Assembly: GCF_001642995.1 (NCBI RefSeq)
Contig: NZ_LOHS01000108.1
Location: 1 to 64,000, forward strand
Length of the DNA: 64,000 bases
Direction of reading: 5' to 3'
DNA from: Streptomyces jeddahensis
GTDB taxonomy: Bacteria; Actinomycetota; Actinomycetes; Streptomycetales; Streptomycetaceae
Below are positions 1 through 28,570 of this stretch, in pieces; the first letter of the stretch is position 1; every line of letters starts with the position of its first letter. The notes under the pieces were generated by a model. It was not told the DNA's origin. It made no database searches and worked only from the letters and a program-made list of their open reading frames with translations. Made by a program: the position numbers and the translations under genes.

Positions 1-160
1 GCCACGGCAGACGATCTTCGCCGTGGACACCCGCCGACGACCAGCATGAGTATCCGCTCGCCCCTCACACCAGACCCTTGACCTGCGAACTTCACGTTGC
101 ACGGACTGGAAGTTCGCAGAACTCCCAGGAGGGCATGACGGCATCATCTCCGCCCCAGGC
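1..160 (-). repeat. Copy R1 (partial, inverted) of a dispersed repeat
   Basis: Mirror of the first 160 bases of R2 (9993-10405). It is cut by the window start. It shares with R2 and R3 the stretch containing the inverted hexamers around GTTCGCAGAACTCCC and the GACGATCTTCGCCGTGG block. Confidence 0.85.
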
Positions 161-340
161 GCAGTTGCCGCACTGCTCGAGCCCCTTGTTGCCTGAGCAT
201 GCCTGAGGCGGATTCGGCCGGCCGGCGGAGGTGGTCGGCGATGCCCGGTGCGTCACCCATGCTCGACTCCGGCGGGCCGAAACGCAGGTCAGGCTTGGGC
301 ACCAGATCACCAACCGAGGAAGATCGGACTTAACGTCCAC

Positions 341-775
341 TTAGGAGTGGCAGAGCTGAAAGGCGATCTCCTGTGGCCGCGACCCGAATCCCAGCCGTAC
401 CTGGGCTCCGACCTGCGCCCTGTGCAGGGGCTCGGCACTGACCCTGGCGCGGAGGCGGAACCCTTCCCGCATTTCGATGATGGCCATAGCGCGAGGCCTG
501 CCTACGCTGCGACCAACGACGGTGACTTGACGGATGACGCCGATGCCGTCACTGCGCTCCGTGGCCAAGTCGGTGGAGCCGCAGACAGGACAATACAGGC
601 AGCGGAACGCTGACGTGTGACACCAGCGGCAGCGCTGGAAGTACAGAAGGCCGTCGCGGAGTCCGCCCGTTGGGACTGAGCTCTGGTGGTCTGAATCGGC
701 CTGTGGATCGGCAGTTGAAATGCCGTCCCTCTCAGCGGGGTCGTTGTGTGCGGTTTCAATCACTGATTGGGACAT
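341..775 (-). CDS. DUF35 zinc-ribbon/OB-fold protein (left copy)
   Basis: Mirror copy, identical to 9378-9812; the description is given there. The 144-residue protein starts at an ATG preceded by a purine-rich ribosome-binding site. It has two CxxC pairs in its rubredoxin-like zinc ribbon and an OB-fold C-terminus. Confidence 0.75.
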   Translation of the reverse strand: MSQSVIETAHNDPAERDGISTADPQADSDHQSSVPTGGLRDGLLYFQRCRWCHTSAFRCLYCPVCGSTDLATERSDGIGVIRQVTVVGRSVGRPRAMAIIEMREGFRLRARVSAEPLHRAQVGAQVRLGFGSRPQEIAFQLCHS

Positions 776-976
776 GGCGAATCTCCCTGTCCGCTGCCGG
801 GGGCGGCGGAACGGTTCCGTGGCAGGCAACGAGGCCGGCTCCGGTGATGGATGCGGCAGATCAGGGCCATTTGGACCTTCAGCTGAGTCAAGACGACTGT
901 GTCGCGAGATCACCTGCATGGCGTCAGCGGCCCCGGCCTCCGTCCCGGGACCGCCCCGGGACGGAGGGCTGAAATG

Positions 977-1207
977 TCGTCAGTCCTTGATCTCGCAGAT
1001 GGCGGCGCCGAAGGTGACGGAGGTGCCCTTCCTGGCCTTCCTCGACGAGGAACGTCCGCTTCGGACCGACGCGATCGCCCACCTTGCCGTACATCGGCAT
1101 GACCACCGTCGCCGCATAGACGTACGCCGTCGTACCCACAGCATGTCGTCCAACCCGCCCAGGTCTCCGACGATCGTCGGAAGGGCTGTGCTGAAGACCA
1201 AGCCCAC
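977..1207 (-). pseudogene. MFS transporter remnant (left copy)
   Basis: Mirror of 8946-9176. It encodes a TALPTIVGDLGGLDDMLWV-like block and, after a one-base frameshift, a TVVMPMYGKVGDRVG block. These are the first helices and the motif-A loop of a 14-TM DHA2 drug transporter; the rest of the gene is missing. Confidence 0.7.
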
Positions 1208-1286
1208 CCTGGGCGGGCCCTGACTGTCGGCGATGTCTTCGAGCGATGTCCGCGTCGGCGCGCCGTCTCACCGGGACTGTGCCGGG

Positions 1287-1700
1287 TCAGTGCTCACTGC
1301 GGCCGCCGTCCAGCGCGCCCAGCCTGTCGAGCGTTCTTTCTGCAGCCTGCATCGCGCCCCGTGCCAGGGGGACGCCGGCGTAGGCCGCGCTGTGGAGGAT
1401 CACCTCGGCGATCTCCGACGGACCCAGCCCGTTCCGGACGGCGACCTCGGTGTGCAGTTCGATCTCGTCCTGACGTCCCAGCGCCGTCAGGATCGCAAGG
1501 GTGATGCAGCTTCGAGTGCGCCGGTCGAGACCGTCTCGGCCCCAGACCTCGCTCCAGACCGATCGTGTTACGTAGTCGTAGAAGGCTGCGGCGAAGTCAC
1601 TGCGCCGGGCAAGCGAGGCGTCGACGAACTCGTCGCCGAGGACCGAGCGACGCACTCGCATTCCTGTGTCGAGTTGGCCGTCGGATGCATCGGCGGTCAC
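1287..1700 (-). CDS. Carboxymuconolactone decarboxylase-like protein (left copy)
   Basis: Mirror copy, identical to 8453-8866; see that entry. The GTG start overlaps the stop of the flavin monooxygenase by four bases (GTGA), so the two genes are translationally coupled. Confidence 0.8.
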   Translation of the reverse strand: MTADASDGQLDTGMRVRRSVLGDEFVDASLARRSDFAAAFYDYVTRSVWSEVWGRDGLDRRTRSCITLAILTALGRQDEIELHTEVAVRNGLGPSEIAEVILHSAAYAGVPLARGAMQAAERTLDRLGALDGGRSEH

Positions 1701-3337
1701 CGCGAGCTCCACGACGCGTGACCGGTGATCACGTCGAGGAGGTGTTCGACGTCCGCAGGGAGCTCGTCGCCCCGCCATACGACGTGGTGATCGGATCGGA
1801 CCAGCGCCGCATCACGCTCGTACAGAGCGCGCAAGGCCTCGCGGTCCTCGTCGACCGGGGTGAAGACCTGGAGCGGGATCCCCCGCCTCTCGGCGTGCTT
1901 GAGCAGATCACTGGTGTCGCAGTCGCCGAGATCGAGGAGAGTGAATCCGAGACCCAGATGGTCGTAGAGCGAACTTCCGTCGGCCAACCACAGGTGCGGA
2001 GCCCGGTTGCCGGGCGCTGCGCTTGGCGTGTAGTCGGCGAAAGCAGGCGGCGGCTGCTCAGTGCCGTCCCGCACGATGACGGGTGAACTCGAGTACCGAT
2101 AGCCCAGCTGGCCTCCCATCCGCTTGAACTGGACCAGCTTCCGCTCGAGGATGTCGGTCTTCACCGCCTCTCGGACGGCGTCCCCCGCCGGACCGTCCTC
2201 CTCGATGCCCGGCCGCACCAGCTCGATGGCGCCGAGCGCGTGATTCGCCTCGGATCCGAGTTGAATGAAGCGGACTGCTTCTCGCCTGTCGATGCTGTAG
2301 CTCGGGATCAGCATCGGGCCACCCCAGCCCTGCACGAGCGCCGCGAGTTTCCAGCCGAGATCGGCGGCATCGCCGATACCGCTGTTCATCCCGAAGCCGC
2401 CCTGCGGTGAGACCATGTGGGCAGCGTCGCCGGCGAGCATCACGCGGCCGTAGTCAAGGCGGGGCGCGAGCAGGGAGTTCTCGCCGAAGGCGCCGCCGCT
2501 GAGCGGCTCGACGTCGATTTCCTGGCCGACCGCTTTGAAGATGAGCTGCTTGACCTGCTCCCAGTCGTCACCGTCCACGCCCTCGGGCGCCGGCCCGGCG
2601 AAGTACTGCCATGTGTCGGGGCCTTGCGGGGTGATGAGGTCGCTACCGCGGTCCTCGTTGTAGATGTAGACCATCGACACGACGGGACCCGCGCTCCAGA
2701 CTTCCTTGAGCTGCTTGGAGCGGAAGTGCCACGACAGGCTCTTCGCCAGGGTCCGGCCTTCGTGCCGAACGTTCAGCACCCGGCGCAGATTGCCGCGGCT
2801 GCCGTCGGACACCACGAGATAGTCGCCGCGCAGCTCGTAAGTCGTGCCGTCGGCGCGCGCGACTTCGACGCTCACACCGTCGTCGTCCTGGGTGAACGTC
2901 CGGACCTCGTTCTCAAAGCGGTAGTCGATCAGCGGAAGCTGCTCGACCCGTTCCCACATCGTCTTCTCGATGCCCTCGTTGGGCGCCCACTCGGCGACCT
3001 CGGAAGCGAACGGCAGTGGCTCGCTCCACTCGTAGGTGCGGGGCAGGTTGAGGAGGAGGTGCCCGTTGAGCCGGGTCACGAAGGAGACATCCCGCTGGAT
3101 GTCGTCCGGCACTGGATCGTTCCTCCGCAGCGCATCCGCCATGCCCCAGCGTCGGAAGTGTTCCATCGAGCGCACGTTGGTCATGTTGGTCCGCAGCAGG
3201 AAGGGCTTCCCCTTCTCGCGCCGCTCGAGCACGATGCTCGGCACTCCGCGAAGTGCCAGGTCAATCGCCAGCGAGCTGCCAACGGGGCCGCCTCCCGCGA
3301 TGATCACCGGAGCATCTGCCGGCCTGTCCGTGCCCAT
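1697..3337 (-). CDS. FAD-dependent aromatic monooxygenase (left copy)
   Basis: Mirror copy, identical to 6816-8456; see that entry for domains. It is read away from the FAD oxidase at 3461, with 123 bases between the two starts that contain candidate regulator half-sites. Confidence 0.88.
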   Translation of the reverse strand: MGTDRPADAPVIIAGGGPVGSSLAIDLALRGVPSIVLERREKGKPFLLRTNMTNVRSMEHFRRWGMADALRRNDPVPDDIQRDVSFVTRLNGHLLLNLPRTYEWSEPLPFASEVAEWAPNEGIEKTMWERVEQLPLIDYRFENEVRTFTQDDDGVSVEVARADGTTYELRGDYLVVSDGSRGNLRRVLNVRHEGRTLAKSLSWHFRSKQLKEVWSAGPVVSMVYIYNEDRGSDLITPQGPDTWQYFAGPAPEGVDGDDWEQVKQLIFKAVGQEIDVEPLSGGAFGENSLLAPRLDYGRVMLAGDAAHMVSPQGGFGMNSGIGDAADLGWKLAALVQGWGGPMLIPSYSIDRREAVRFIQLGSEANHALGAIELVRPGIEEDGPAGDAVREAVKTDILERKLVQFKRMGGQLGYRYSSSPVIVRDGTEQPPPAFADYTPSAAPGNRAPHLWLADGSSLYDHLGLGFTLLDLGDCDTSDLLKHAERRGIPLQVFTPVDEDREALRALYERDAALVRSDHHVVWRGDELPADVEHLLDVITGHASWSSR

Positions 3338-3460
3338 CGTCGACCTCTTTCCTCACACCCGAGCCCTTCGGCCCATGCCTCTTCCGGGGCGATGGAACCG
3401 ACAAGGCGATGTCGGTCCTCAACCTATTCTTAGTCTGTCATGCTTTTACAGTCTAGATAA

Positions 3461-5041
3461 ATGTCAGACCGTTTGCTACAACTGCCCCGAGATCTACTCG
3501 ATGAAGAGGAGCAGTGGATGGACACGCAGTTCGTGGGGTCGGACGCAGTCGCCGACGCCCTGGAAGCCATGCGGAAGGCGCTGGGCGATGACGCCGTCCT
3601 CACTGCGCGCGCCGACCTGGACGAGTTCCGAGACCCGTTCTACGTCCTCGGCTCCGCCGAGAACGATGTCTCCGCGGCCGTCATGCCGACCTGTGTCGAG
3701 GAGGTCCAGGCGGTCGTCCGCATCGCCAGCGCGCACGGCGTGCCGCTGTGGACGGTGAGCACCGGCCGCAACTACGGCTATGGCGGGGCCGCTCCCCGCG
3801 TGCCGGGCTCGATCCTCGTCAACTTGTCGAAGATGAACCGCGTCCTCGAGATCAACGAGGAGCTCGGCTACGCCGTCGTCGAGCCCGGCGTCCGCTGGTT
3901 CGACTTGTGCGAGGCACTCGAAGCCTCGGGCGGCAAGTGGTGGTCGTCCATTCCCGATCTCGGCTGGGGCTCGGTCGTGGGCAACAGCCTCGAATACGGT
4001 CGCGGTCACACCCGGATCGGTTCGCATGCGGAGAACGTCGCGGGTATGGAGGTCGTCCTGCCCAACGGCGAGCTGATGCGAACGGGCATGGGTGCCATGA
4101 CCGGCAACAAGGCCTGGCACGCCTACCCGTTCGGCTTCGGCCCGATGGTCGACGGGCTGTTCTTCCAGTCCAACCTGGGCATCGTCACGCGGATCGGCTG
4201 GCGCCTCATGCCACGACCGGAGAAGTACGCCTCGTGCTGGGTGCACTTCGACGGCGATGACATCATCGTTCCCGTTATCGATGCGATGCGCGATCTGATG
4301 CTCGACGAGACGATCAACAACTACCCGTTCCTGGGGCGCGGGGTGGCGGCGAACACCGAGGGCCAGCCTGACCTCGACCCGAAGAGCGAGAAGTGGGCGC
4401 TCCGCTTCGCCCTGTACGGGTACGACGAGATCGTCGAGGCCAAGTGGAAGATCGTCGAGCGGGTGCTCGGCTCGATTCCGGGCGTGACCCTCGGTCGCAA
4501 GATGTTCGACGGCACCGACCGGGTCGGGCCGCAGGAGGGCATCCACGACGACAAGGTGCAAGCCGGGATCCCGGGCATGGAACTACTGGACCTCTACAAG
4601 GTGCCGTTCGGTCCCGATACGGGACATCTGGACTTCTCGCCTGTCGGGCCGCTGATCGGCAGCGAGGTGCTGAAGATGGTTCGCCTCGTCCGAGGCATGT
4701 ACGAGGAGTTCGGCGAGCCCTACGCAGCCGGCATGATGCTGCTGCCCCGGAGCATCCTGGTCGTCTCCGTGATGTTCTTCGACCCGAAAGACGCCGAGAA
4801 GACGAAGAAGATCTACGAGAACTACGACCCCATGCTTCAGCGGATCGCCGCAGAAGGTTACGGCCTGTACCGCGCGCACATCTTCAAGATGGACGCTGTC
4901 GCCGCGACGTTCGACTTCAATGACCACGCCTACCTGCGGTTCGTCGAAACGGTCAAGGATGCCGTCGACCCCAACGGAATTCTCCAGGCCGGCAAGCAGG
5001 GCATCTGGCCGAAGTCCTTGCGTGGGAAGGCCAAGTCCTGA
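3461..5041 (+). CDS. Vanillyl-alcohol-oxidase family FAD oxidase (4-alkylphenol/eugenol oxidase-like), left copy
   Basis: This 526-residue flavoprotein has the PCMH fold: an N-terminal FAD-binding half with STGRNYGYGGAAPR (about residues 100-113) and PDLGWGSVVGN (165-175), then a cap/substrate domain. The C-terminal GYGLYRAH keeps the Tyr-Arg pair that stabilises phenolate in vanillyl-alcohol and eugenol oxidases. His389 in GHLDFSP lines up with the histidine that carries covalent 8-alpha-histidyl FAD in eugenol oxidase. Family members oxidise para-alkyl or para-allyl phenols through a quinone methide, giving alcohols, ketones or alkenes plus peroxide. The exact substrate here is not readable; 4-alkylphenols or lignin-type phenols are the natural guess given the aromatic genes around it. 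The start codon sits inside a TGTCAGAC operator-like motif. The other arm has an identical copy. Confidence 0.88.
   Translation: MSDRLLQLPRDLLDEEEQWMDTQFVGSDAVADALEAMRKALGDDAVLTARADLDEFRDPFYVLGSAENDVSAAVMPTCVEEVQAVVRIASAHGVPLWTVSTGRNYGYGGAAPRVPGSILVNLSKMNRVLEINEELGYAVVEPGVRWFDLCEALEASGGKWWSSIPDLGWGSVVGNSLEYGRGHTRIGSHAENVAGMEVVLPNGELMRTGMGAMTGNKAWHAYPFGFGPMVDGLFFQSNLGIVTRIGWRLMPRPEKYASCWVHFDGDDIIVPVIDAMRDLMLDETINNYPFLGRGVAANTEGQPDLDPKSEKWALRFALYGYDEIVEAKWKIVERVLGSIPGVTLGRKMFDGTDRVGPQEGIHDDKVQAGIPGMELLDLYKVPFGPDTGHLDFSPVGPLIGSEVLKMVRLVRGMYEEFGEPYAAGMMLLPRSILVVSVMFFDPKDAEKTKKIYENYDPMLQRIAAEGYGLYRAHIFKMDAVAATFDFNDHAYLRFVETVKDAVDPNGILQAGKQGIWPKSLRGKAKS
3462..3470 (+). promoter_or_regulatory. Candidate FadR-type operator (TGTCAGACC)
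   Basis: Eight of nine bases match the palindrome TGTCWGACA that recurs before several catabolic genes in this window (34377, 35232, 46145, 54704, 56785). The GTnnnAC core is the usual FadR-subfamily GntR recognition pattern. It overlaps the start codon of the FAD oxidase, so binding would block initiation or early elongation. The mirror copy is at 6683-6691. Confidence 0.5.
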
Positions 5042-5043
5042 GC

Positions 5044-5109
5044 GCAGGGTGAACGCGGGGCGGTGGACCGGTCGGATCCGACCGGTCCACCGCCCCGCGT
5101 TCACCCTGC
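5044..5109. terminator. Hairpin at the palindrome axis, shared bidirectional terminator
   Basis: The 70 bases between the two convergent oxidase stop codons form one perfect hairpin centred on GTCGGATCCGAC at 5071-5082. A single gene copy could end in a GC-rich stem with a GGATCC loop. Here the pairing continues through the whole arm, because this is also the axis of the 10-kb inverted repeat. No T-tract is present, as is usual in Streptomyces terminators. Confidence 0.65.
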
Positions 5110-5111
5110 GC

Positions 5112-6692
5112 TCAGGACTTGGCCTTCCCACGCAAGGACTTCGGCCAGATGCCCTGCTTGCCGGCCTGGAGAATTCCGTTGGGGTCGACGGCATCCTTGA
5201 CCGTTTCGACGAACCGCAGGTAGGCGTGGTCATTGAAGTCGAACGTCGCGGCGACAGCGTCCATCTTGAAGATGTGCGCGCGGTACAGGCCGTAACCTTC
5301 TGCGGCGATCCGCTGAAGCATGGGGTCGTAGTTCTCGTAGATCTTCTTCGTCTTCTCGGCGTCTTTCGGGTCGAAGAACATCACGGAGACGACCAGGATG
5401 CTCCGGGGCAGCAGCATCATGCCGGCTGCGTAGGGCTCGCCGAACTCCTCGTACATGCCTCGGACGAGGCGAACCATCTTCAGCACCTCGCTGCCGATCA
5501 GCGGCCCGACAGGCGAGAAGTCCAGATGTCCCGTATCGGGACCGAACGGCACCTTGTAGAGGTCCAGTAGTTCCATGCCCGGGATCCCGGCTTGCACCTT
5601 GTCGTCGTGGATGCCCTCCTGCGGCCCGACCCGGTCGGTGCCGTCGAACATCTTGCGACCGAGGGTCACGCCCGGAATCGAGCCGAGCACCCGCTCGACG
5701 ATCTTCCACTTGGCCTCGACGATCTCGTCGTACCCGTACAGGGCGAAGCGGAGCGCCCACTTCTCGCTCTTCGGGTCGAGGTCAGGCTGGCCCTCGGTGT
5801 TCGCCGCCACCCCGCGCCCCAGGAACGGGTAGTTGTTGATCGTCTCGTCGAGCATCAGATCGCGCATCGCATCGATAACGGGAACGATGATGTCATCGCC
5901 GTCGAAGTGCACCCAGCACGAGGCGTACTTCTCCGGTCGTGGCATGAGGCGCCAGCCGATCCGCGTGACGATGCCCAGGTTGGACTGGAAGAACAGCCCG
6001 TCGACCATCGGGCCGAAGCCGAACGGGTAGGCGTGCCAGGCCTTGTTGCCGGTCATGGCACCCATGCCCGTTCGCATCAGCTCGCCGTTGGGCAGGACGA
6101 CCTCCATACCCGCGACGTTCTCCGCATGCGAACCGATCCGGGTGTGACCGCGACCGTATTCGAGGCTGTTGCCCACGACCGAGCCCCAGCCGAGATCGGG
6201 AATGGACGACCACCACTTGCCGCCCGAGGCTTCGAGTGCCTCGCACAAGTCGAACCAGCGGACGCCGGGCTCGACGACGGCGTAGCCGAGCTCCTCGTTG
6301 ATCTCGAGGACGCGGTTCATCTTCGACAAGTTGACGAGGATCGAGCCCGGCACGCGGGGAGCGGCCCCGCCATAGCCGTAGTTGCGGCCGGTGCTCACCG
6401 TCCACAGCGGCACGCCGTGCGCGCTGGCGATGCGGACGACCGCCTGGACCTCCTCGACACAGGTCGGCATGACGGCCGCGGAGACATCGTTCTCGGCGGA
6501 GCCGAGGACGTAGAACGGGTCTCGGAACTCGTCCAGGTCGGCGCGCGCAGTGAGGACGGCGTCATCGCCCAGCGCCTTCCGCATGGCTTCCAGGGCGTCG
6601 GCGACTGCGTCCGACCCCACGAACTGCGTGTCCATCCACTGCTCCTCTTCATCGAGTAGATCTCGGGGCAGTTGTAGCAAACGGTCTGACAT
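5112..6692 (-). CDS. Vanillyl-alcohol-oxidase family FAD oxidase, right copy
   Basis: Identical 526-residue mirror of 3461-5041. It has the same covalent-FAD histidine (His389), Tyr-Arg phenolate pair and operator-like motif over the start codon. It converges on the left copy with 70 bases between stops and diverges from the monooxygenase at 6816. Confidence 0.88.
   Translation of the reverse strand: MSDRLLQLPRDLLDEEEQWMDTQFVGSDAVADALEAMRKALGDDAVLTARADLDEFRDPFYVLGSAENDVSAAVMPTCVEEVQAVVRIASAHGVPLWTVSTGRNYGYGGAAPRVPGSILVNLSKMNRVLEINEELGYAVVEPGVRWFDLCEALEASGGKWWSSIPDLGWGSVVGNSLEYGRGHTRIGSHAENVAGMEVVLPNGELMRTGMGAMTGNKAWHAYPFGFGPMVDGLFFQSNLGIVTRIGWRLMPRPEKYASCWVHFDGDDIIVPVIDAMRDLMLDETINNYPFLGRGVAANTEGQPDLDPKSEKWALRFALYGYDEIVEAKWKIVERVLGSIPGVTLGRKMFDGTDRVGPQEGIHDDKVQAGIPGMELLDLYKVPFGPDTGHLDFSPVGPLIGSEVLKMVRLVRGMYEEFGEPYAAGMMLLPRSILVVSVMFFDPKDAEKTKKIYENYDPMLQRIAAEGYGLYRAHIFKMDAVAATFDFNDHAYLRFVETVKDAVDPNGILQAGKQGIWPKSLRGKAKS
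6683..6691 (-). promoter_or_regulatory. Candidate FadR-type operator, mirror copy
   Basis: Mirror of 3462-3470, overlapping the start codon of the right-arm FAD oxidase. Reading on the minus strand gives TGTCAGACC. Confidence 0.5.
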
Positions 6693-6815
6693 TTATCTAG
6701 ACTGTAAAAGCATGACAGACTAAGAATAGGTTGAGGACCGACATCGCCTTGTCGGTTCCATCGCCCCGGAAGAGGCATGGGCCGAAGGGCTCGGGTGTGA
6801 GGAAAGAGGTCGACG

Positions 6816-8456
6816 ATGGGCACGGACAGGCCGGCAGATGCTCCGGTGATCATCGCGGGAGGCGGCCCCGTTGGCAGCTCGCTGGCGATTGACCTGGCAC
6901 TTCGCGGAGTGCCGAGCATCGTGCTCGAGCGGCGCGAGAAGGGGAAGCCCTTCCTGCTGCGGACCAACATGACCAACGTGCGCTCGATGGAACACTTCCG
7001 ACGCTGGGGCATGGCGGATGCGCTGCGGAGGAACGATCCAGTGCCGGACGACATCCAGCGGGATGTCTCCTTCGTGACCCGGCTCAACGGGCACCTCCTC
7101 CTCAACCTGCCCCGCACCTACGAGTGGAGCGAGCCACTGCCGTTCGCTTCCGAGGTCGCCGAGTGGGCGCCCAACGAGGGCATCGAGAAGACGATGTGGG
7201 AACGGGTCGAGCAGCTTCCGCTGATCGACTACCGCTTTGAGAACGAGGTCCGGACGTTCACCCAGGACGACGACGGTGTGAGCGTCGAAGTCGCGCGCGC
7301 CGACGGCACGACTTACGAGCTGCGCGGCGACTATCTCGTGGTGTCCGACGGCAGCCGCGGCAATCTGCGCCGGGTGCTGAACGTTCGGCACGAAGGCCGG
7401 ACCCTGGCGAAGAGCCTGTCGTGGCACTTCCGCTCCAAGCAGCTCAAGGAAGTCTGGAGCGCGGGTCCCGTCGTGTCGATGGTCTACATCTACAACGAGG
7501 ACCGCGGTAGCGACCTCATCACCCCGCAAGGCCCCGACACATGGCAGTACTTCGCCGGGCCGGCGCCCGAGGGCGTGGACGGTGACGACTGGGAGCAGGT
7601 CAAGCAGCTCATCTTCAAAGCGGTCGGCCAGGAAATCGACGTCGAGCCGCTCAGCGGCGGCGCCTTCGGCGAGAACTCCCTGCTCGCGCCCCGCCTTGAC
7701 TACGGCCGCGTGATGCTCGCCGGCGACGCTGCCCACATGGTCTCACCGCAGGGCGGCTTCGGGATGAACAGCGGTATCGGCGATGCCGCCGATCTCGGCT
7801 GGAAACTCGCGGCGCTCGTGCAGGGCTGGGGTGGCCCGATGCTGATCCCGAGCTACAGCATCGACAGGCGAGAAGCAGTCCGCTTCATTCAACTCGGATC
7901 CGAGGCGAATCACGCGCTCGGCGCCATCGAGCTGGTGCGGCCGGGCATCGAGGAGGACGGTCCGGCGGGGGACGCCGTCCGAGAGGCGGTGAAGACCGAC
8001 ATCCTCGAGCGGAAGCTGGTCCAGTTCAAGCGGATGGGAGGCCAGCTGGGCTATCGGTACTCGAGTTCACCCGTCATCGTGCGGGACGGCACTGAGCAGC
8101 CGCCGCCTGCTTTCGCCGACTACACGCCAAGCGCAGCGCCCGGCAACCGGGCTCCGCACCTGTGGTTGGCCGACGGAAGTTCGCTCTACGACCATCTGGG
8201 TCTCGGATTCACTCTCCTCGATCTCGGCGACTGCGACACCAGTGATCTGCTCAAGCACGCCGAGAGGCGGGGGATCCCGCTCCAGGTCTTCACCCCGGTC
8301 GACGAGGACCGCGAGGCCTTGCGCGCTCTGTACGAGCGTGATGCGGCGCTGGTCCGATCCGATCACCACGTCGTATGGCGGGGCGACGAGCTCCCTGCGG
8401 ACGTCGAACACCTCCTCGACGTGATCACCGGTCACGCGTCGTGGAGCTCGCGGTGA
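6816..8456 (+). CDS. FAD-dependent aromatic monooxygenase (MhpA/PheA-type, class A)
   Basis: This 546-residue class A flavoprotein monooxygenase would use NAD(P)H and O2 to hydroxylate a phenolic ring. The dinucleotide fold IIAGGGPVGSSLAIDLALRG lies at residues 12-31, the DG motif (VVSDGSRGNLRR) near 185-196, and the GD motif (MLAGDAAHMVSPQGGFGMNS) near 300-319. A thioredoxin-like C-terminal domain follows. Length and layout match 3-(3-hydroxyphenyl)propionate or phenol hydroxylases of PF01494. It diverges from the VAO-type oxidase and is coupled by a GTGA overlap to the decarboxylase-like gene. A reasonable reading is that the oxidase trims a para-alkyl phenol and this enzyme hydroxylates the product, but the substrate is inference. 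The left arm has an identical copy. Confidence 0.88.
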   Translation: MGTDRPADAPVIIAGGGPVGSSLAIDLALRGVPSIVLERREKGKPFLLRTNMTNVRSMEHFRRWGMADALRRNDPVPDDIQRDVSFVTRLNGHLLLNLPRTYEWSEPLPFASEVAEWAPNEGIEKTMWERVEQLPLIDYRFENEVRTFTQDDDGVSVEVARADGTTYELRGDYLVVSDGSRGNLRRVLNVRHEGRTLAKSLSWHFRSKQLKEVWSAGPVVSMVYIYNEDRGSDLITPQGPDTWQYFAGPAPEGVDGDDWEQVKQLIFKAVGQEIDVEPLSGGAFGENSLLAPRLDYGRVMLAGDAAHMVSPQGGFGMNSGIGDAADLGWKLAALVQGWGGPMLIPSYSIDRREAVRFIQLGSEANHALGAIELVRPGIEEDGPAGDAVREAVKTDILERKLVQFKRMGGQLGYRYSSSPVIVRDGTEQPPPAFADYTPSAAPGNRAPHLWLADGSSLYDHLGLGFTLLDLGDCDTSDLLKHAERRGIPLQVFTPVDEDREALRALYERDAALVRSDHHVVWRGDELPADVEHLLDVITGHASWSSR

Positions 8457-8866
8457 CCGCCGATGCATCCGACGGCCAACTCGACACAGGAATGCGAGTG
8501 CGTCGCTCGGTCCTCGGCGACGAGTTCGTCGACGCCTCGCTTGCCCGGCGCAGTGACTTCGCCGCAGCCTTCTACGACTACGTAACACGATCGGTCTGGA
8601 GCGAGGTCTGGGGCCGAGACGGTCTCGACCGGCGCACTCGAAGCTGCATCACCCTTGCGATCCTGACGGCGCTGGGACGTCAGGACGAGATCGAACTGCA
8701 CACCGAGGTCGCCGTCCGGAACGGGCTGGGTCCGTCGGAGATCGCCGAGGTGATCCTCCACAGCGCGGCCTACGCCGGCGTCCCCCTGGCACGGGGCGCG
8801 ATGCAGGCTGCAGAAAGAACGCTCGACAGGCTGGGCGCGCTGGACGGCGGCCGCAGTGAGCACTGA
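8453..8866 (+). CDS. Carboxymuconolactone decarboxylase-like protein
   Basis: This 137-residue all-helical protein belongs to the PcaC/AhpD superfamily. The family core is visible as RTRSCITLAILTALGRQDEI, then LHTEVAVRNG and EIAEVILHSAAYAGVP. It strongly resembles the PcaC half of the PcaL fusion at 59742-61037, including the R-RR-VLGD-HVD-like N-terminus and the SEVWGRDGLDRR segment. Gamma-carboxymuconolactone decarboxylation in the protocatechuate branch is therefore plausible. No separate PcaD lies next to it, so another small-molecule decarboxylase role is possible. I chose the GTG at 8453 because it overlaps the preceding stop (GTGA); an in-frame GTG at 8441 is the alternative. Confidence 0.8.
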   Translation: MTADASDGQLDTGMRVRRSVLGDEFVDASLARRSDFAAAFYDYVTRSVWSEVWGRDGLDRRTRSCITLAILTALGRQDEIELHTEVAVRNGLGPSEIAEVILHSAAYAGVPLARGAMQAAERTLDRLGALDGGRSEH

Positions 8867-8945
8867 CCCGGCACAGTCCCGGTGAGACGGCGCGCCGACG
8901 CGGACATCGCTCGAAGACATCGCCGACAGTCAGGGCCCGCCCAGG

Positions 8946-9176
8946 GTGGGCTTGGTCTTCAGCACAGCCCTTCCGACGATCGTCGGAGACCTGGGCGGGT
9001 TGGACGACATGCTGTGGGTACGACGGCGTACGTCTATGCGGCGACGGTGGTCATGCCGATGTACGGCAAGGTGGGCGATCGCGTCGGTCCGAAGCGGACG
9101 TTCCTCGTCGAGGAAGGCCAGGAAGGGCACCTCCGTCACCTTCGGCGCCGCCATCTGCGAGATCAAGGACTGACGA
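8946..9176 (+). pseudogene. MFS (DHA2-type) transporter remnant
   Basis: Residues STALPTIVGDLGGLDDMLWV are read in one frame up to about 9018. One base is then missing and the neighbouring frame continues TTAYVYAATVVMPMYGKVGD. These two blocks are the first two helices and the conserved GKxGDxxGRK loop of 14-TM drug exporters. After about 9106 the similarity ends and a short unrelated 3' end (RKGTSVTFGAAICEIKD, stop at 9171-9173) follows. It is a decayed fragment, duplicated in both arms. Confidence 0.7.
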
Positions 9177-9377
9177 CATTTCAGCCCTCCGTCCCGGGGC
9201 GGTCCCGGGACGGAGGCCGGGGCCGCTGACGCCATGCAGGTGATCTCGCGACACAGTCGTCTTGACTCAGCTGAAGGTCCAAATGGCCCTGATCTGCCGC
9301 ATCCATCACCGGAGCCGGCCTCGTTGCCTGCCACGGAACCGTTCCGCCGCCCCCGGCAGCGGACAGGGAGATTCGCC

Positions 9378-9812
9378 ATGTCCCAATCAGTGATTGAAAC
9401 CGCACACAACGACCCCGCTGAGAGGGACGGCATTTCAACTGCCGATCCACAGGCCGATTCAGACCACCAGAGCTCAGTCCCAACGGGCGGACTCCGCGAC
9501 GGCCTTCTGTACTTCCAGCGCTGCCGCTGGTGTCACACGTCAGCGTTCCGCTGCCTGTATTGTCCTGTCTGCGGCTCCACCGACTTGGCCACGGAGCGCA
9601 GTGACGGCATCGGCGTCATCCGTCAAGTCACCGTCGTTGGTCGCAGCGTAGGCAGGCCTCGCGCTATGGCCATCATCGAAATGCGGGAAGGGTTCCGCCT
9701 CCGCGCCAGGGTCAGTGCCGAGCCCCTGCACAGGGCGCAGGTCGGAGCCCAGGTACGGCTGGGATTCGGGTCGCGGCCACAGGAGATCGCCTTTCAGCTC
9801 TGCCACTCCTAA
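9378..9812 (+). CDS. DUF35 zinc-ribbon/OB-fold acyl-CoA-associated protein
   Basis: This 144-residue protein has the two-part DUF35 layout. A rubredoxin-like zinc ribbon has Cys49-x2-Cys52 and Cys62-x2-Cys65 (RCRWCHTSAF... YCPVCGSTDL). An OB-fold follows, ending in VRLGFGSRPQEIAFQL. DUF35 proteins normally partner thiolase-like or HMG-CoA-synthase-like enzymes, or act in acyl-CoA channelling. No thiolase is adjacent, so it is probably orphaned from a larger operon. I chose the ATG at 9378, which follows GGACAGGGAG, over an ATG 144 bases upstream whose extra residues look non-coding. The left arm has an identical copy. Confidence 0.75.
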   Translation: MSQSVIETAHNDPAERDGISTADPQADSDHQSSVPTGGLRDGLLYFQRCRWCHTSAFRCLYCPVCGSTDLATERSDGIGVIRQVTVVGRSVGRPRAMAIIEMREGFRLRARVSAEPLHRAQVGAQVRLGFGSRPQEIAFQLCHS

Positions 9813-9992
9813 GTGGACGTTAAGTCCGATCTTCCTCGGTTGGTGATCTGGTGCCCAAGCCTGACCTGCGTTTCGGCCCGCCGGAGTCGAGCATGGGTGA
9901 CGCACCGGGCATCGCCGACCACCTCCGCCGGCCGGCCGAATCCGCCTCAGGCATGCTCAGGCAACAAGGGGCTCGAGCAGTGCGGCAACTGC

Positions 9993-10405
9993 GCCTGGGG
10001 CGGAGATGATGCCGTCATGCCCTCCTGGGAGTTCTGCGAACTTCCAGTCCGTGCAACGTGAAGTTCGCAGGTCAAGGGTCTGGTGTGAGGGGCGAGCGGA
10101 TACTCATGCTGGTCGTCGGCGGGTGTCCACGGCGAAGATCGTCTGCCGTGGCGGCCGTTGCCGTTGCCGTTGTCGGGTTCTGCCGTACCGAGGACCGTGC
10201 CGCTCTTACCATCCGTCACCGGGGCGGTAGGGGGAGGGAGTTGGTATGCCGGAGCTGGAGCGGATTACAAGCTCGCCGCTGAACTGGACGTGTTGGCCGA
10301 GGAGTTGGCCGAGCAGCCGCAGGAGGTCCAGGCCGCGGCGGAAACCGCCCTCGCCCCGGCCCTCGCCCCGGCTCTCGCCCGGGTGGCGGGGCGCGCGGTC
10401 CTATC
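9993..10405 (+). repeat. Copy R2 of a dispersed repeat with an embedded 5' gene end
   Basis: Nearly identical to R3 (26333-26709), apart from a few substitutions and indels. It contains the sequence shared from GCCTGGGGCGGAGATGATGC through CGTCACCGGGGCGGTAGGGG, a purine-rich ribosome-binding site and an ATG (10245). A short reading frame follows, rich in Ala/Glu and ending in a shared ARVAGRAVLS. Both copies lose similarity just after that motif, so each is the 5' end of a truncated gene of unknown function. R2 and R3 bracket about 16 kb as direct repeats; R1 is the inverted part of the palindrome. Confidence 0.85.
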
Positions 10406-10675
10406 CGCTCACCGGCGACCGGGGCCGACTGCTCTGGGTCTCGGCGGCCCGGCCCGACACCGGGGGCGGGCCTCTGCGCGTTGGAAGGGGAATCCGCTGC
10501 GGACAGGGTTCGAGGCCCACTCGCGAGCTGGAGTGACCGTCCACCCTTGCCTTCGTTCCGGGCGTAATGGGCCTCATTGAGGCCGTGTTGAGGCCACAAG
10601 GAAAGGAACAGACTGGCAAGGGCCGCGAAGCAGGTCATGTCCCCTGTAGGACACCGTTGGCGAATTCGGCGTTGT
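10406..10675. other. Intergenic, no recognisable gene
   Basis: Several overlapping frames are open because of high GC, but none shows a family motif. The GGCCTCATTGAGGCCGTGTTGAGGCC stretch near 10568-10593 contains short inverted GGCCTCA/TGAGGCC units that could form a hairpin. Nothing else is supportable. Confidence 0.5.
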
Positions 10676-24363: not shown

Positions 24364-24755
24364 CAGCTACTGCTTCATCGGTCACGACCTCGACGTCGTG
24401 CGCTACATGTCTGACTGGGATCGTGGTGCCCTACCGTGGCCAGGTGCTCGAGGACGGGCCCGCGCAGACGGTTGCCCGCCACCCACGCCATCCTCACACC
24501 CAAGCCCTGGTCGCGGCGTCGCCCGAGCTCGACCGGCTGGCGAAGCCAGATCAGCTGCGCCCCGCGCGCGATCCTCGCCCCGAGCCACCGCGGGGCGGAG
24601 GCTGCCCCTTCGCACCCATGTGTGGGTTCGCGGAAGACCGGTGTTGGGTCGAGCAGCCGCCGGTCCACCTCGCGGCCGACGACGGACACGTTGCATGCCA
24701 CCGCTATGACGCCGCCGCGGACACAACTGCGGGAGTCCTCGTGCCGCACCTCTGA
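24364..24755 (+). pseudogene. Dipeptide/oligopeptide ABC transporter ATPase (OppF/DppF) C-terminal fragment
   Basis: FIGHDLDVVRYMSD (the H-loop and following helix) is read to about 24412. After a frameshift, IVVPYRGQVLEDGPAQTVA and HPHTQALVAASPELDR follow. The oligo-HPY cysteine block GCPFAPMCGFAEDRCWVEQP and a tail ending in VACHRYDAA complete it. Walker A, the signature motif and Walker B are all missing, so this is a 3' remnant of an importer ATPase. Confidence 0.75.
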
Positions 24756-24778
24756 TTACGACCGGAGAATCACAGCTC

Positions 24779-25591
24779 ATGCTCGAATCCGAACGCCGAC
24801 GTCAGTCGGTACTGCGCATCTACGACGCCCTGACCGCCGGACGCCTCCACGTCGAGAGCGACGATGTCCTCGAGACGATCTTCTCGCCAGAGGCCCGCCA
24901 TCACCGCTCCTCCCAGCCGCTCAGCGACGGGCCGGCCGGAGCGCGTCAGCTCTACCTCGAGCTGCAGACTCGCCTTCCCGGAGTCGTCGCAACGGTGAAG
25001 CGAACCGTCTCTGATGATGAGTTCGTGGCCGTGCACTGGCACGCCTCAACGGATCCGCGTGACGAGTTCAGCGGCGAGTCCTGGTGTGAATTCTTCCGCT
25101 TCGTCGGCGACCAGGTCGCGGAGCACTGGCAGCTCCACGTCGCCGTGCCGTCGAGCACGGTCAGCGGAAGGTCGGTGTTCAGCGATGCCTACCAGCGCAC
25201 TCACGGTACGGGCTACGGGGAAGCCGCTATGACAGCGATCAACCGCGAGGTCGCGTCGGCGGCCTTCGCCCGATTCATCGAGTTCGACCACACCGTCGTG
25301 GCTGATCACTGGGGCGAGGTCTACCTCCAGCACAACGAGACCATCCCCGACGGTCCTGAGGCCATCCGCCGCTCCCTGGAGGAAACCGGCGGCCTTCCGG
25401 ATGAGTTCAGACCGAGCTTCACGGTGGTCGCCACTGTCGCCGAAGGCGATCTGGTGTGGTTCCTCGAGCGCGTCCGCGTCGGAAATCAGACCGGCCTCGG
25501 TGTCGACATCCTCCGACTGGTCGATCGCCGGATCGTGGAGCACTGGGACATCCCGGCGCTCAGACCCGGTTCCGTCGATGCTGGGCAGTGA
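24779..25591 (+). CDS. Tandem SnoaL-like/NTF2-fold protein
   Basis: A 270-residue protein made of two NTF2-like cone domains (about 1-125 and 150-262), each ending in the characteristic V-EHW strand (QVAEHWQLH; RIVEHWDIP). SnoaL-type domains act as polyketide cyclases, dehydratases, isomerases or simple binding proteins. Tandem forms are common among uncharacterised actinobacterial catabolic proteins. CGGAGAAT lies upstream of the ATG. It is an intact gene between two decayed fragments. Substrate unknown. Confidence 0.75.
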   Translation: MLESERRRQSVLRIYDALTAGRLHVESDDVLETIFSPEARHHRSSQPLSDGPAGARQLYLELQTRLPGVVATVKRTVSDDEFVAVHWHASTDPRDEFSGESWCEFFRFVGDQVAEHWQLHVAVPSSTVSGRSVFSDAYQRTHGTGYGEAAMTAINREVASAAFARFIEFDHTVVADHWGEVYLQHNETIPDGPEAIRRSLEETGGLPDEFRPSFTVVATVAEGDLVWFLERVRVGNQTGLGVDILRLVDRRIVEHWDIPALRPGSVDAGQ

Positions 25592-26226: not shown

Positions 26227-26332
26227 CGGCCGGCTTCCGACCGCGGGCGCTCGTCGAGCAGCCCGGCCTGCTGCGCCAGCAGCGCGGCCTGCACCCGGCT
26301 CGTCACCCGCAGCTTCGTCAGGATCGCGCTGG
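26223..26332 (-). pseudogene. LuxR/NarL response-regulator C-terminal fragment
   Basis: The minus strand reads AILTKLRVTSRVQAALLAQQ then AGLLDERPRSEAGR and a stop. This is the recognition helix and last helix of a LuxR-type DNA-binding domain. It is cut exactly where repeat R3 begins (26333) and is coupled to the kinase fragment by ATGA. Confidence 0.75.
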
Positions 26333-26709
26333 GCCTGGGGCGGAGATGATGCCGTCATGCCCTCCTGGGAATTCTGCGAACTTCCAGTGAGGCCCGTGCA
26401 ACGTGAAGTTCGCAGGTCAAGGGTCTGGTGTGAGGGGCGAGCGGGATACTCATGCTGGTCGTCGGCGGGTGTCCACGGCGAAGATCGTCTGCCGTGGCGG
26501 CCGTTGCCGTTGCCGTTGTCGGGTTCTGCCGTACCGAGGACCGTGCCGCCCTTACCATCCGTCACCGGGGCGGTAGGGGGATGACGCGGGGAGGGCGTTG
26601 GTATGCAGGAGCTCGCCGGACTGAACCGGCTGGCCGAGCAGGACCGGGCCGCGGCGGAAACCGCCGTCGCCCCGGCTCTCGCCCGGGTGGCGGGGCGGGC
26701 GGTCCTATC
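26333..26709 (+). repeat. Copy R3 of the dispersed repeat
   Basis: Direct copy of R2 (9993-10405) with small indels, such as an extra GAGGC after AACTTCCAGT and a GATGACGC block before the ribosome-binding site. Its ATG at 26603 starts MQELAGLNRLAEQDRAAAET; the shared ARVAGRAVLS marks the end of the repeat. Its left edge truncates a response-regulator gene, so the repeat edge is a rearrangement junction. Confidence 0.85.
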
Positions 26710-27799
26710 GCGCTATCTGGCCGTTTCACGAGTTCGCCCAGACCAGATCCGAACCATTCCGCTCAGGCGGCGTTTATTCCCGCCCGTCTCGCATGGCAGA
26801 CCAACACTCAATGGTCTATGTCACGAGCGCGGGATGTTCATTTTCCGTTCGGTTCCACTGCGGGATGTCGATGAGGTAGGTGCCCGCCTGGGTCTTGTCG
26901 AAGGCGTCCAGGGGGCCGGTGTGCAGGAGCTTGTTCGGGGCGAGGGGAACGGCCGAGCAGGCCGAGGGGTAGCTGCCGTTGCGGTCGATCAAGCACAGCA
27001 CGCCCTCACCGAAGGAGTCAGCACCTCGAGCAGGTCGCGCCGGACGCGCTTGCCGTTCGCCTTGACGCGGGGGCGCGGGTGAGGGAGACGTCGGGGTGCA
27101 CCCAGCGGGGCTCGCCGTCCATGTCCTCGCTGATCAGGGGCCACGGGCCGCTGTCACGTTCTTCGCTGCGGATGACCGGGACCGGGGGCGTCTTCGAGCG
27201 GGCGACCGCGTCCTTGAGGATCCGCAGCGCGGGGAAGACCGCTCCCTCCGGTTCGTCCTCCTCGTCCCCCGGTACCAGACCGTCCCCGTCGTCTTCTTCG
27301 TCGACGTCCGCGATGTGCCCGCGGGCAGCGGTGGGCTGGACAGCCGCTTCGTTTCGGGCAGCTCAGTGGTGCCTGCGGACGCGGCGGTGGCGTACGCCTG
27401 CAGTGCGGAGGCGGGCCGGCGTCCCTCGGCAGTGTCCGGGAATGGCGGCGGCGCCGCAGCCGTCACAACGAGGGAAAGCCCGAGTTCCGCGAGGGCTGCG
27501 GGGTCGCCGCCAGCACGTGGGTGACGGAGGCCGGCAGCCCCTGCTGGGCAACGGACGTGTAGGGAAGCGCTGCCTCGGCAAGCTCCCGCTCCACCGCACC
27601 GCCGCCCAGACCCTGTACAGGTCCTTCGGCACTCGTACGGCCGGCAGGGACGGCTCCGGCGTCAAGGAACCGGGCATGCAGCAGGTCGGGCCGCAGGTAC
27701 GCCGCGCTGATCACACCGAAGTCACGCTCCGCGACCGTCACCTGAACCTTGGCGCGGTCCTCGGTCGGTGCGAGCGTGACCAGGACGTCGGCGTCGAGG
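26710..27799. other. Gene debris, mostly minus strand, no family recognised
   Basis: No complete gene is visible. On the minus strand 26816-27001 encodes a 61-residue frame containing GTYLIDIPQWNRTENEHPAL. The stretch 27010-27460 has a protein-like acidic frame (ADVDEEDDGDGLVPGDEEDE, ISEDMDGEPRWVHPDVSL). From 27463 to about 27800 another frame reads SLLDADVLVTLAPTEDRAKV and VISAAYLRPDLLHARFLD. The last two may be one frameshifted protein of unknown function, interrupted by the IS5-type fragment on its right. Confidence 0.4.
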
Positions 27800-27980: not shown

Positions 27981-28520
27981 CTAGTCGGAGACCGGATGTG
28001 TTCCGACCGACACTGCGGCGAGGACGGCGGGTTGCGAGGTGCGGTTGTGCCATGCGTGAGACGTGCCGTTCTGGATCACCACGTCGCCCTTGCGTAGCAA
28101 TGTCTGTGGGCCGTGGTCCAATTCAAGCCACAACTCGCCGTCGAGCACGATCACGTAATCGACGGTCGGCGTCGTGTGGAAGCCCGGTCGTTCCGGGTCG
28201 AACCTGTGCGCCAGACCGGGAAGTGCCTGGCGCTGTTCCGCCTCAGCCGCGGCGACGTCGGCCGAGGCGAACACCGACGACGGCGGGAACCTGACCACCG
28301 TCATCCCCGAACCGCCCGGGCCGGGGAGGAGCGACTCCGCGGTCACGCTCAGATCCGCCGGCGTGCCGCGCGGAGCCGTCACGTCTTGCATGGACCAGAC
28401 CAGGGTGTTGCTGAAGCCGGGGATGTGTACGAAGTCGTGGGTGCGAGGGGCCGGCCCGTCGGAGACGACGCAACTGCGCCCCTTCTCGTCGAACCCGGTG
28501 ACTATGCGGCGCACGTGCAT
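27981..28520 (-). CDS. Cupin-domain protein
   Basis: A 179-residue protein whose C-terminal half (about 105-175) is a single conserved cupin barrel. Motif 1 is represented by HTTPTVDYVIVLDGELWLEL and motif 2 by GDVVIQNGTSHAWHNR, keeping Glu/His positions of a metal site only in part. The family resembles cupins found beside aromatic ring-cleavage genes. It may be a small dioxygenase-like enzyme or a sensor of phenolic acids. It faces an alcohol-dehydrogenase fragment across a 93-base region with a strong palindrome (28571-28585). Confidence 0.8.
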   Translation of the reverse strand: MHVRRIVTGFDEKGRSCVVSDGPAPRTHDFVHIPGFSNTLVWSMQDVTAPRGTPADLSVTAESLLPGPGGSGMTVVRFPPSSVFASADVAAAEAEQRQALPGLAHRFDPERPGFHTTPTVDYVIVLDGELWLELDHGPQTLLRKGDVVIQNGTSHAWHNRTSQPAVLAAVSVGTHPVSD

Positions 28521-28570
28521 GACTGTGCTCCTTTCCTGTCGTTTGTTTGAAGTCAGATGTCACCCCCGCC

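Follow-up and report, generated by a model that had tools for sequence, protein, structure and literature searches.

A perfect 10-kb palindrome at the start of a Streptomyces jeddahensis contig is probably an assembly fold-back at a terminator hairpin

Does the perfect inverted duplication of aromatic catabolic genes at the start of a Streptomyces jeddahensis contig represent two real gene copies, or a single copy that was written twice? The window (the whole stretch of DNA that was analysed, 64,000 nucleotides) starts at base 1 of contig C108 (77,715 bases) in a draft assembly of 206 contigs and 8,447,833 bases. Bases 1–5076 are the reverse complement of bases 5077–10152: all 5076 of 5076 base pairs are paired, with 0 mismatches and no spacer, and the axis lies at 5076|5077. 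These values bear out a preliminary description of the locus as a perfect 10-kb head-to-head palindrome without spacer or divergence. Full-length copies of the arm were found in the genome only at 1–5076 and 5077–10152. Stems were also scanned in 125 further loci of this genome (1,286,883 bases; 39 loci all N) together with the window; the longest in those loci, a second fold-back aside, are 19–26 bp, which places the palindrome far above chance. The left arm end coincides with base 1 of C108, and position 10152 merely mirrors that end, rather than being a breakpoint seen in the sequence.

The sequence at the outer edge of the right arm runs on into the flank. A repeat copy at 26329–26714 aligns with 9989–10409 at 83% overall, with no break at 10152, and a 106-base exact repeat spans the edge: 55 of its bases fall within the arm and 51 lie past 10152. 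Because the repeat copy matches unbroken across 10152, the right arm and the right flank are one native stretch, and the left arm ends only because C108 ends there, exactly 55 bases inside an exact repeat. The mirror thus reaches the contig end and halts in a repeat after one assembler overlap length (55 bases); the left arm stops at the contig end, the right edge lies inside a continuous repeat, and no outer breakpoint, as expected of a real duplication, was found at either.

The same length recurs at other contig ends of the draft. In a sample of 107 contig ends (65 starts, including that of the window, and 42 right ends; 39 all-N starts were left out), six pairs of ends share identical terminal runs of at least 15 bases. 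The run is exactly 55 bases in 5 of the 6 pairs and 78 bases in 1 of 6, making 55 bases the commonest exact overlap between contig ends; three of the six pairs come from one trio of contigs, so that the pairs amount to four independent groups. For 18 of the 107 ends, the terminal 55-mer was found again elsewhere in the sampled sequence. Such 55-base ends would presumably be left by a k-mer-graph assembly whose final k was 55. A missed SMRT adapter, named in the preliminary description as a possible source of the structure, is rejected on this signature, since contig ends lying exactly 55 bases into exact repeats, together with 55-base end overlaps, point to a k-mer-graph assembly.

An element of ~95 bases lies at the arm end (window 8–102 and 10051–10146) and is found again, at ~79–91% identity, in many of the sampled genomes of the genus. 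Its other copies in this genome have 95% identity at 26329 and 77–84% identity on C152, C155 and C67, and an Rfam search of 1–30000, which included the element, returned no family at gathering score. A mobile-element junction was considered for this element and rejected; because the repeat runs on across 10152, the element marks the place at which the assembly stopped.

Table 1. Positions, strands and supporting observations for features of the palindrome and its surroundings (window coordinates)
Feature	Position	Strand	Remarks
Probable false second arm, written by fold-back	1..5076	+	0 mismatches vs 5077–10152; starts at C108 base 1
Probable native arm copy	5077..10152	-	continuous with right flank; repeat copy 26329–26714 matches 9989–10409 unbroken over 10152
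Order along native arm	10152 -> 5077		repeat, OB-fold gene, decarboxylase gene, monooxygenase gene, oxidase gene, terminator
Terminal 55-mer of C108, exact repeat	1..55	.	also 26444–26498; fold-back walk would have stopped here
Probable natural terminator palindrome at axis, ~48 bp	5053..5100	.	length inferred from 8-base foot kept at C22:48–55; hairpins at same place in L045, L047
FAD oxidase gene, vanillyl-alcohol/eugenol oxidase kind	5112..6692	-	PF01565 4.2e-30, solved relatives; false mirror 3461–5041 +
Oxidase gene piece recurring at C22:1–54	6061..6114	+	53/54 bases; fused there to dehydrogenase end; mirror 4039–4092
FAD monooxygenase gene	6816..8456	+	PF01494 1.1e-60, NF004780 above cut-off; false mirror 1697–3337 -
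Carboxymuconolactone-decarboxylase-family gene	8375..8866	+	PF02627 1.8e-21, below PcaC cut-off; false mirror 1287–1778 -
Exact repeat, 106 bases, over outer edge of right arm	10098..10203	+	other copy 26444–26549

The content of the arm fits its earlier label as aromatic catabolic: it encodes an FAD-binding oxidase, an FAD monooxygenase whose best solved relative is RebC, a protein of the carboxymuconolactone-decarboxylase family and a fourth protein with a weak OB-fold match, below cut-off. In our reading, these genes are ordinary and single-copy. The genome collection holds four related oxidase loci, all in other genera and at 82–86% identity, and the stretch with 97% identity to a congener starts no earlier than window 10981; for these two reasons the arm genes may have been horizontally acquired. 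Searches for a congener with the same arm gave, among 294 other genomes of one genus sample, longest DNA matches of 69% over a single gene and, in a second genus sample, an oxidase relative (E up to 1e-150) in only 2 of 391 other genomes, at 49–55% identity; the 436 plasmid records with a match to the arm all had less than 60% identity. Since no congener with the same arm was found, synteny rests on Amycolatopsis sp. MtRt-6 (L045 and L046) and Microbacterium timonense (L047).

The Amycolatopsis cluster lies on two scaffolds of one draft that are identical over all 21,515 bases fetched, and L045 and L046 are accordingly treated as one independent case; the doubling there may reflect either a genuine duplication of large size or a further one created in assembly. 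Two pieces of the window, 24364–25568 and 28000–28541, have 91% and 72% DNA identity to the Amycolatopsis cluster and lie on the far side of the neighbourhood of the second repeat copy, and between these pieces and the arm stands the sequence with 97% identity to the congener. From these matches, the cluster seems to be split around core genes.

The axis lies 35 bases from the end of the oxidase gene. A stem-loop is found immediately 3' of the orthologous oxidase gene in both relatives, with stems of 18 pairs in Amycolatopsis and 16 pairs in Microbacterium, and 0 of 200 shuffles fold equally well in either. The placement of the axis in a terminator hairpin, already proposed from the window itself, is thus supported by stem-loops at the same place in other genera; the folding energy in the window is much larger, a value inflated by the mirror itself. 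Judging from its retained foot, the C108 axis hairpin would be ~48 bp long. A 17-base probe of the hairpin occurs in C108 only, and no contig joins the upper hairpin to contig C22.

Comparison with the relatives indicates what should follow the axis. The sequence behind the Amycolatopsis oxidase gene (L045) matches C22:84–1165, C22:6459–9801 and C22:10174–13828 at 75%, 82% and 72% DNA identity, respectively. A dehydrogenase gene lies from C22:65 onward, so that downstream sequence of the expected kind is present elsewhere than on C108; Pfam (PF00107, PF08240) assigns its product to the zinc-binding alcohol dehydrogenases, and the convergent dehydrogenase found directly behind the hairpin in the relatives has 75% (L045/L046) and 67% (L047) amino-acid identity to it. 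In Rhodococcus rhodnii (L044), the oxidase is present and the dehydrogenase lies ~2.8 kb further on. C22:48–55 is CCCCGCGT, the far foot of the terminator stem of the window, nine bases before the dehydrogenase stop codon (65–67), and none of the 19,919 other 27-base stretches in the initial 20 kb of C22 contains this 8-mer. On synteny and this 8-base foot, which carry the join, C22 is likely the true continuation of the chromosome beyond the axis. The foot is preceded by arm sequence: C22:1–47 is the reverse complement of arm 4046–4092, fused to the terminator foot, and the match of C22:1–54 to the arm reaches 53 of 54 bases when six bases shared at the joint are counted. We take this inverted piece to be a small chimeric dead end at a hairpin that is hard to sequence, and regard it as the weakest point of the account.

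A second locus of the draft shows the same anatomy. Among the 106 contig ends other than that of the window, one carries a fold-back, within a detection range of up to 20 kb for contig starts (6 kb for C67) and 10 kb for most right ends, longer ones being missed. In C36:1–19424 (L106), 9712 pairs mirror each other up to the end of the contig, with a single mismatch (8150/11275); that end lies exactly 55 bases inside an 87-base exact repeat common to C155, at a tRNA-Leu gene. The convergent gene that stands behind the axis gene in relatives is found in this genome at C113:206–1775, with a product that we take to be CorA-like. It occurs behind the axis gene in 5 of 7 relative loci (67–72% amino-acid identity); in the two others (L196 and L197) the match runs off or ends at the fetched edge, giving 5 of 5 where the flank is readable. 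C113:1–25 is the C36 axis hairpin, with six bases of its near side and nineteen of its far side, after which C113 departs from the mirror, and C113 thereby identifies the C36 axis as a short natural palindrome. On the evidence of the hairpin and the conserved gene, we conclude that C113 is the true neighbour and that the normal arrangement of the C36 locus also exists in the same assembly.

The two fold-backs have in common an axis without a loop. Of 18 stems found in the 125 loci and the window (at least 19 bp, loop of at most 12 bases), 3 are loop-free: the C108 palindrome, that of C36, and a 38-bp palindrome in C33 (L103), which was assembled through with no fold-back. The 15 looped stems have loops of 1–7 bases and none folds back; two of them are mirror images inside C36. 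In a graph test confined to the C36 locus, with C36 and C113 entered as a single copy, each of the 7 values of k tested between 21 and 39 allowed the fold-back as a walk, and none of the 3 between 41 and 55 did. Since the fold-back is a walk at small k at this locus, an assembler that proceeds upward in k can fold back without any wrong read.

A fold-back walk at a palindrome is a known kind of error in de Bruijn graph assembly. We conclude, with a probability of roughly 95%, that the 10-kb palindrome is an assembly fold-back artefact and that its catabolic genes are ordinary and probably single-copy. According to this hypothesis, the arm would be present once in the chromosome, and the stem and loop of a strong terminator behind the oxidase gene would together make a single perfect palindrome of ~48 bp. 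At any k below the length of the palindrome, the arm and its true downstream sequence would share one node of the k-mer graph, and turning back would be a legal walk. The assembler would then have walked back along the arm, halting 55 bases into the first exact repeat that it could not decide, and the true downstream sequence, comprising the convergent zinc-type dehydrogenase gene together with further parts of the cluster, would have been left behind as C22. The preliminary description had left the formation of the palindrome undecided between a very recent event, a linear-replicon end and an artefact; the artefact branch is supported, a replicon end is unlikely, and perfect identity, in this reading, requires no recent event, one copy having been written twice.

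Several observations stand against a plain fold-back. C22 opens with 47 inverted arm bases that a plain fold-back does not predict, the arms of C36 differ by one mismatch, the C33 palindrome was not folded, and the Rhodococcus dehydrogenase lies at a distance from the oxidase. In addition, a last k of 55 alone would resolve a 48-bp palindrome, and an earlier, smaller k or chimeric reads must therefore be assumed. We infer both the assembler program with its k-mer steps and the lack of a real subpopulation carrying the palindrome.

Chimeric reads would imply an artefact of chemistry rather than of the graph, in which inverted molecules made at the hairpin during library preparation, for example by whole-genome amplification, would have been followed by the assembler. 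Whole-genome amplification is reported to yield palindromic inverted chimeric reads (PMC13265396), the last k appears to be 55 and so longer than the palindromes, and the arm fragment opening C22 looks chimeric. We nevertheless consider this origin very unlikely: only two axes were found among the ends examined, both at strong hairpins, whereas random chimeras would be expected anywhere, and in the C36 test the graph by itself was sufficient at small k. There is hardly any probability, in our judgement, that a real and recent inverted duplication arose by fold-back or template switching at the hairpin, with arms of at least 5 kb and the far flank missing, or with a ~1-kb copy whose exit into C22 would lie at arm position 4046. 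Although C22 opens with 47–54 arm bases in exactly the order of such an exit, C108 is unbroken through 6107, a point at which a genuine exit would be expected to leave a branch, the C22 end matches exactly over 47 bases rather than 55, the outer edge is a contig end within a repeat, and the unrelated C36 locus has the same anatomy with its normal arrangement also assembled. Scarcely to be credited, likewise, is that the strain really carries inverted copies, formed by fold-back at perfect-palindrome terminators (C108 and C36), in at least some of its cells and alongside the normal arrangement; were the inverted copies real, the arm piece opening C22 would be the exit of a ~1-kb inverted copy.

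A linear-replicon end, be it a hairpin telomere or a fused chromosome end, that appears as a palindrome because it was read through would suit the genus, for which large terminal rearrangements and arm exchange are described (PMC5869714). This origin is exceedingly improbable, since the downstream genes expected beyond the axis sit on C22, beginning at its start, and the cluster goes on there as in the relatives; moreover, the axis is a terminator position common to two other genera, and the second axis, in C36, lies within a gene pair conserved in relatives.

Returning to assembly fold-back, this reading clears the draft of a spurious duplicate of a catabolic cluster and of a wrong gene count. 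It also provides an error test that needs nothing beyond sequence: a mirror that extends to the contig end, a halt inside a repeat after one overlap length, and an orphan contig starting at the hairpin. With 2 of the 107 contig ends examined carrying a fold-back, false duplications may also be present in other short-read drafts whose terminators lack a loop. Among the papers listed by literature searches, none was seen on exactly this artefact, and we do not claim that none exists.

The palindrome resembles three known systems to different degrees. Large palindromes in genomes, reported to give rise to hairpins, to be unstable and to cause difficulties for most sequencing methods (PMC4057610), have the same look, that of a closely spaced long inverted repeat; here, however, evidence for two real copies is lacking, and the expected neighbour is on another contig. 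Amplification chimeras (PMC13265396) likewise comprise mirror-image sequence absent from the genome, but, unlike the mirror observed here, they would not be expected to lie at terminators or to break off exactly 55 bases inside a repeat. Fold-back at a palindrome in a de Bruijn graph gives, as seen here, a perfect, loop-free mirror and a contig end one k-mer into a repeat; its axis lies in a short natural palindrome, as is probable for C108, and, in the C36 case, it is a legal walk at small k.
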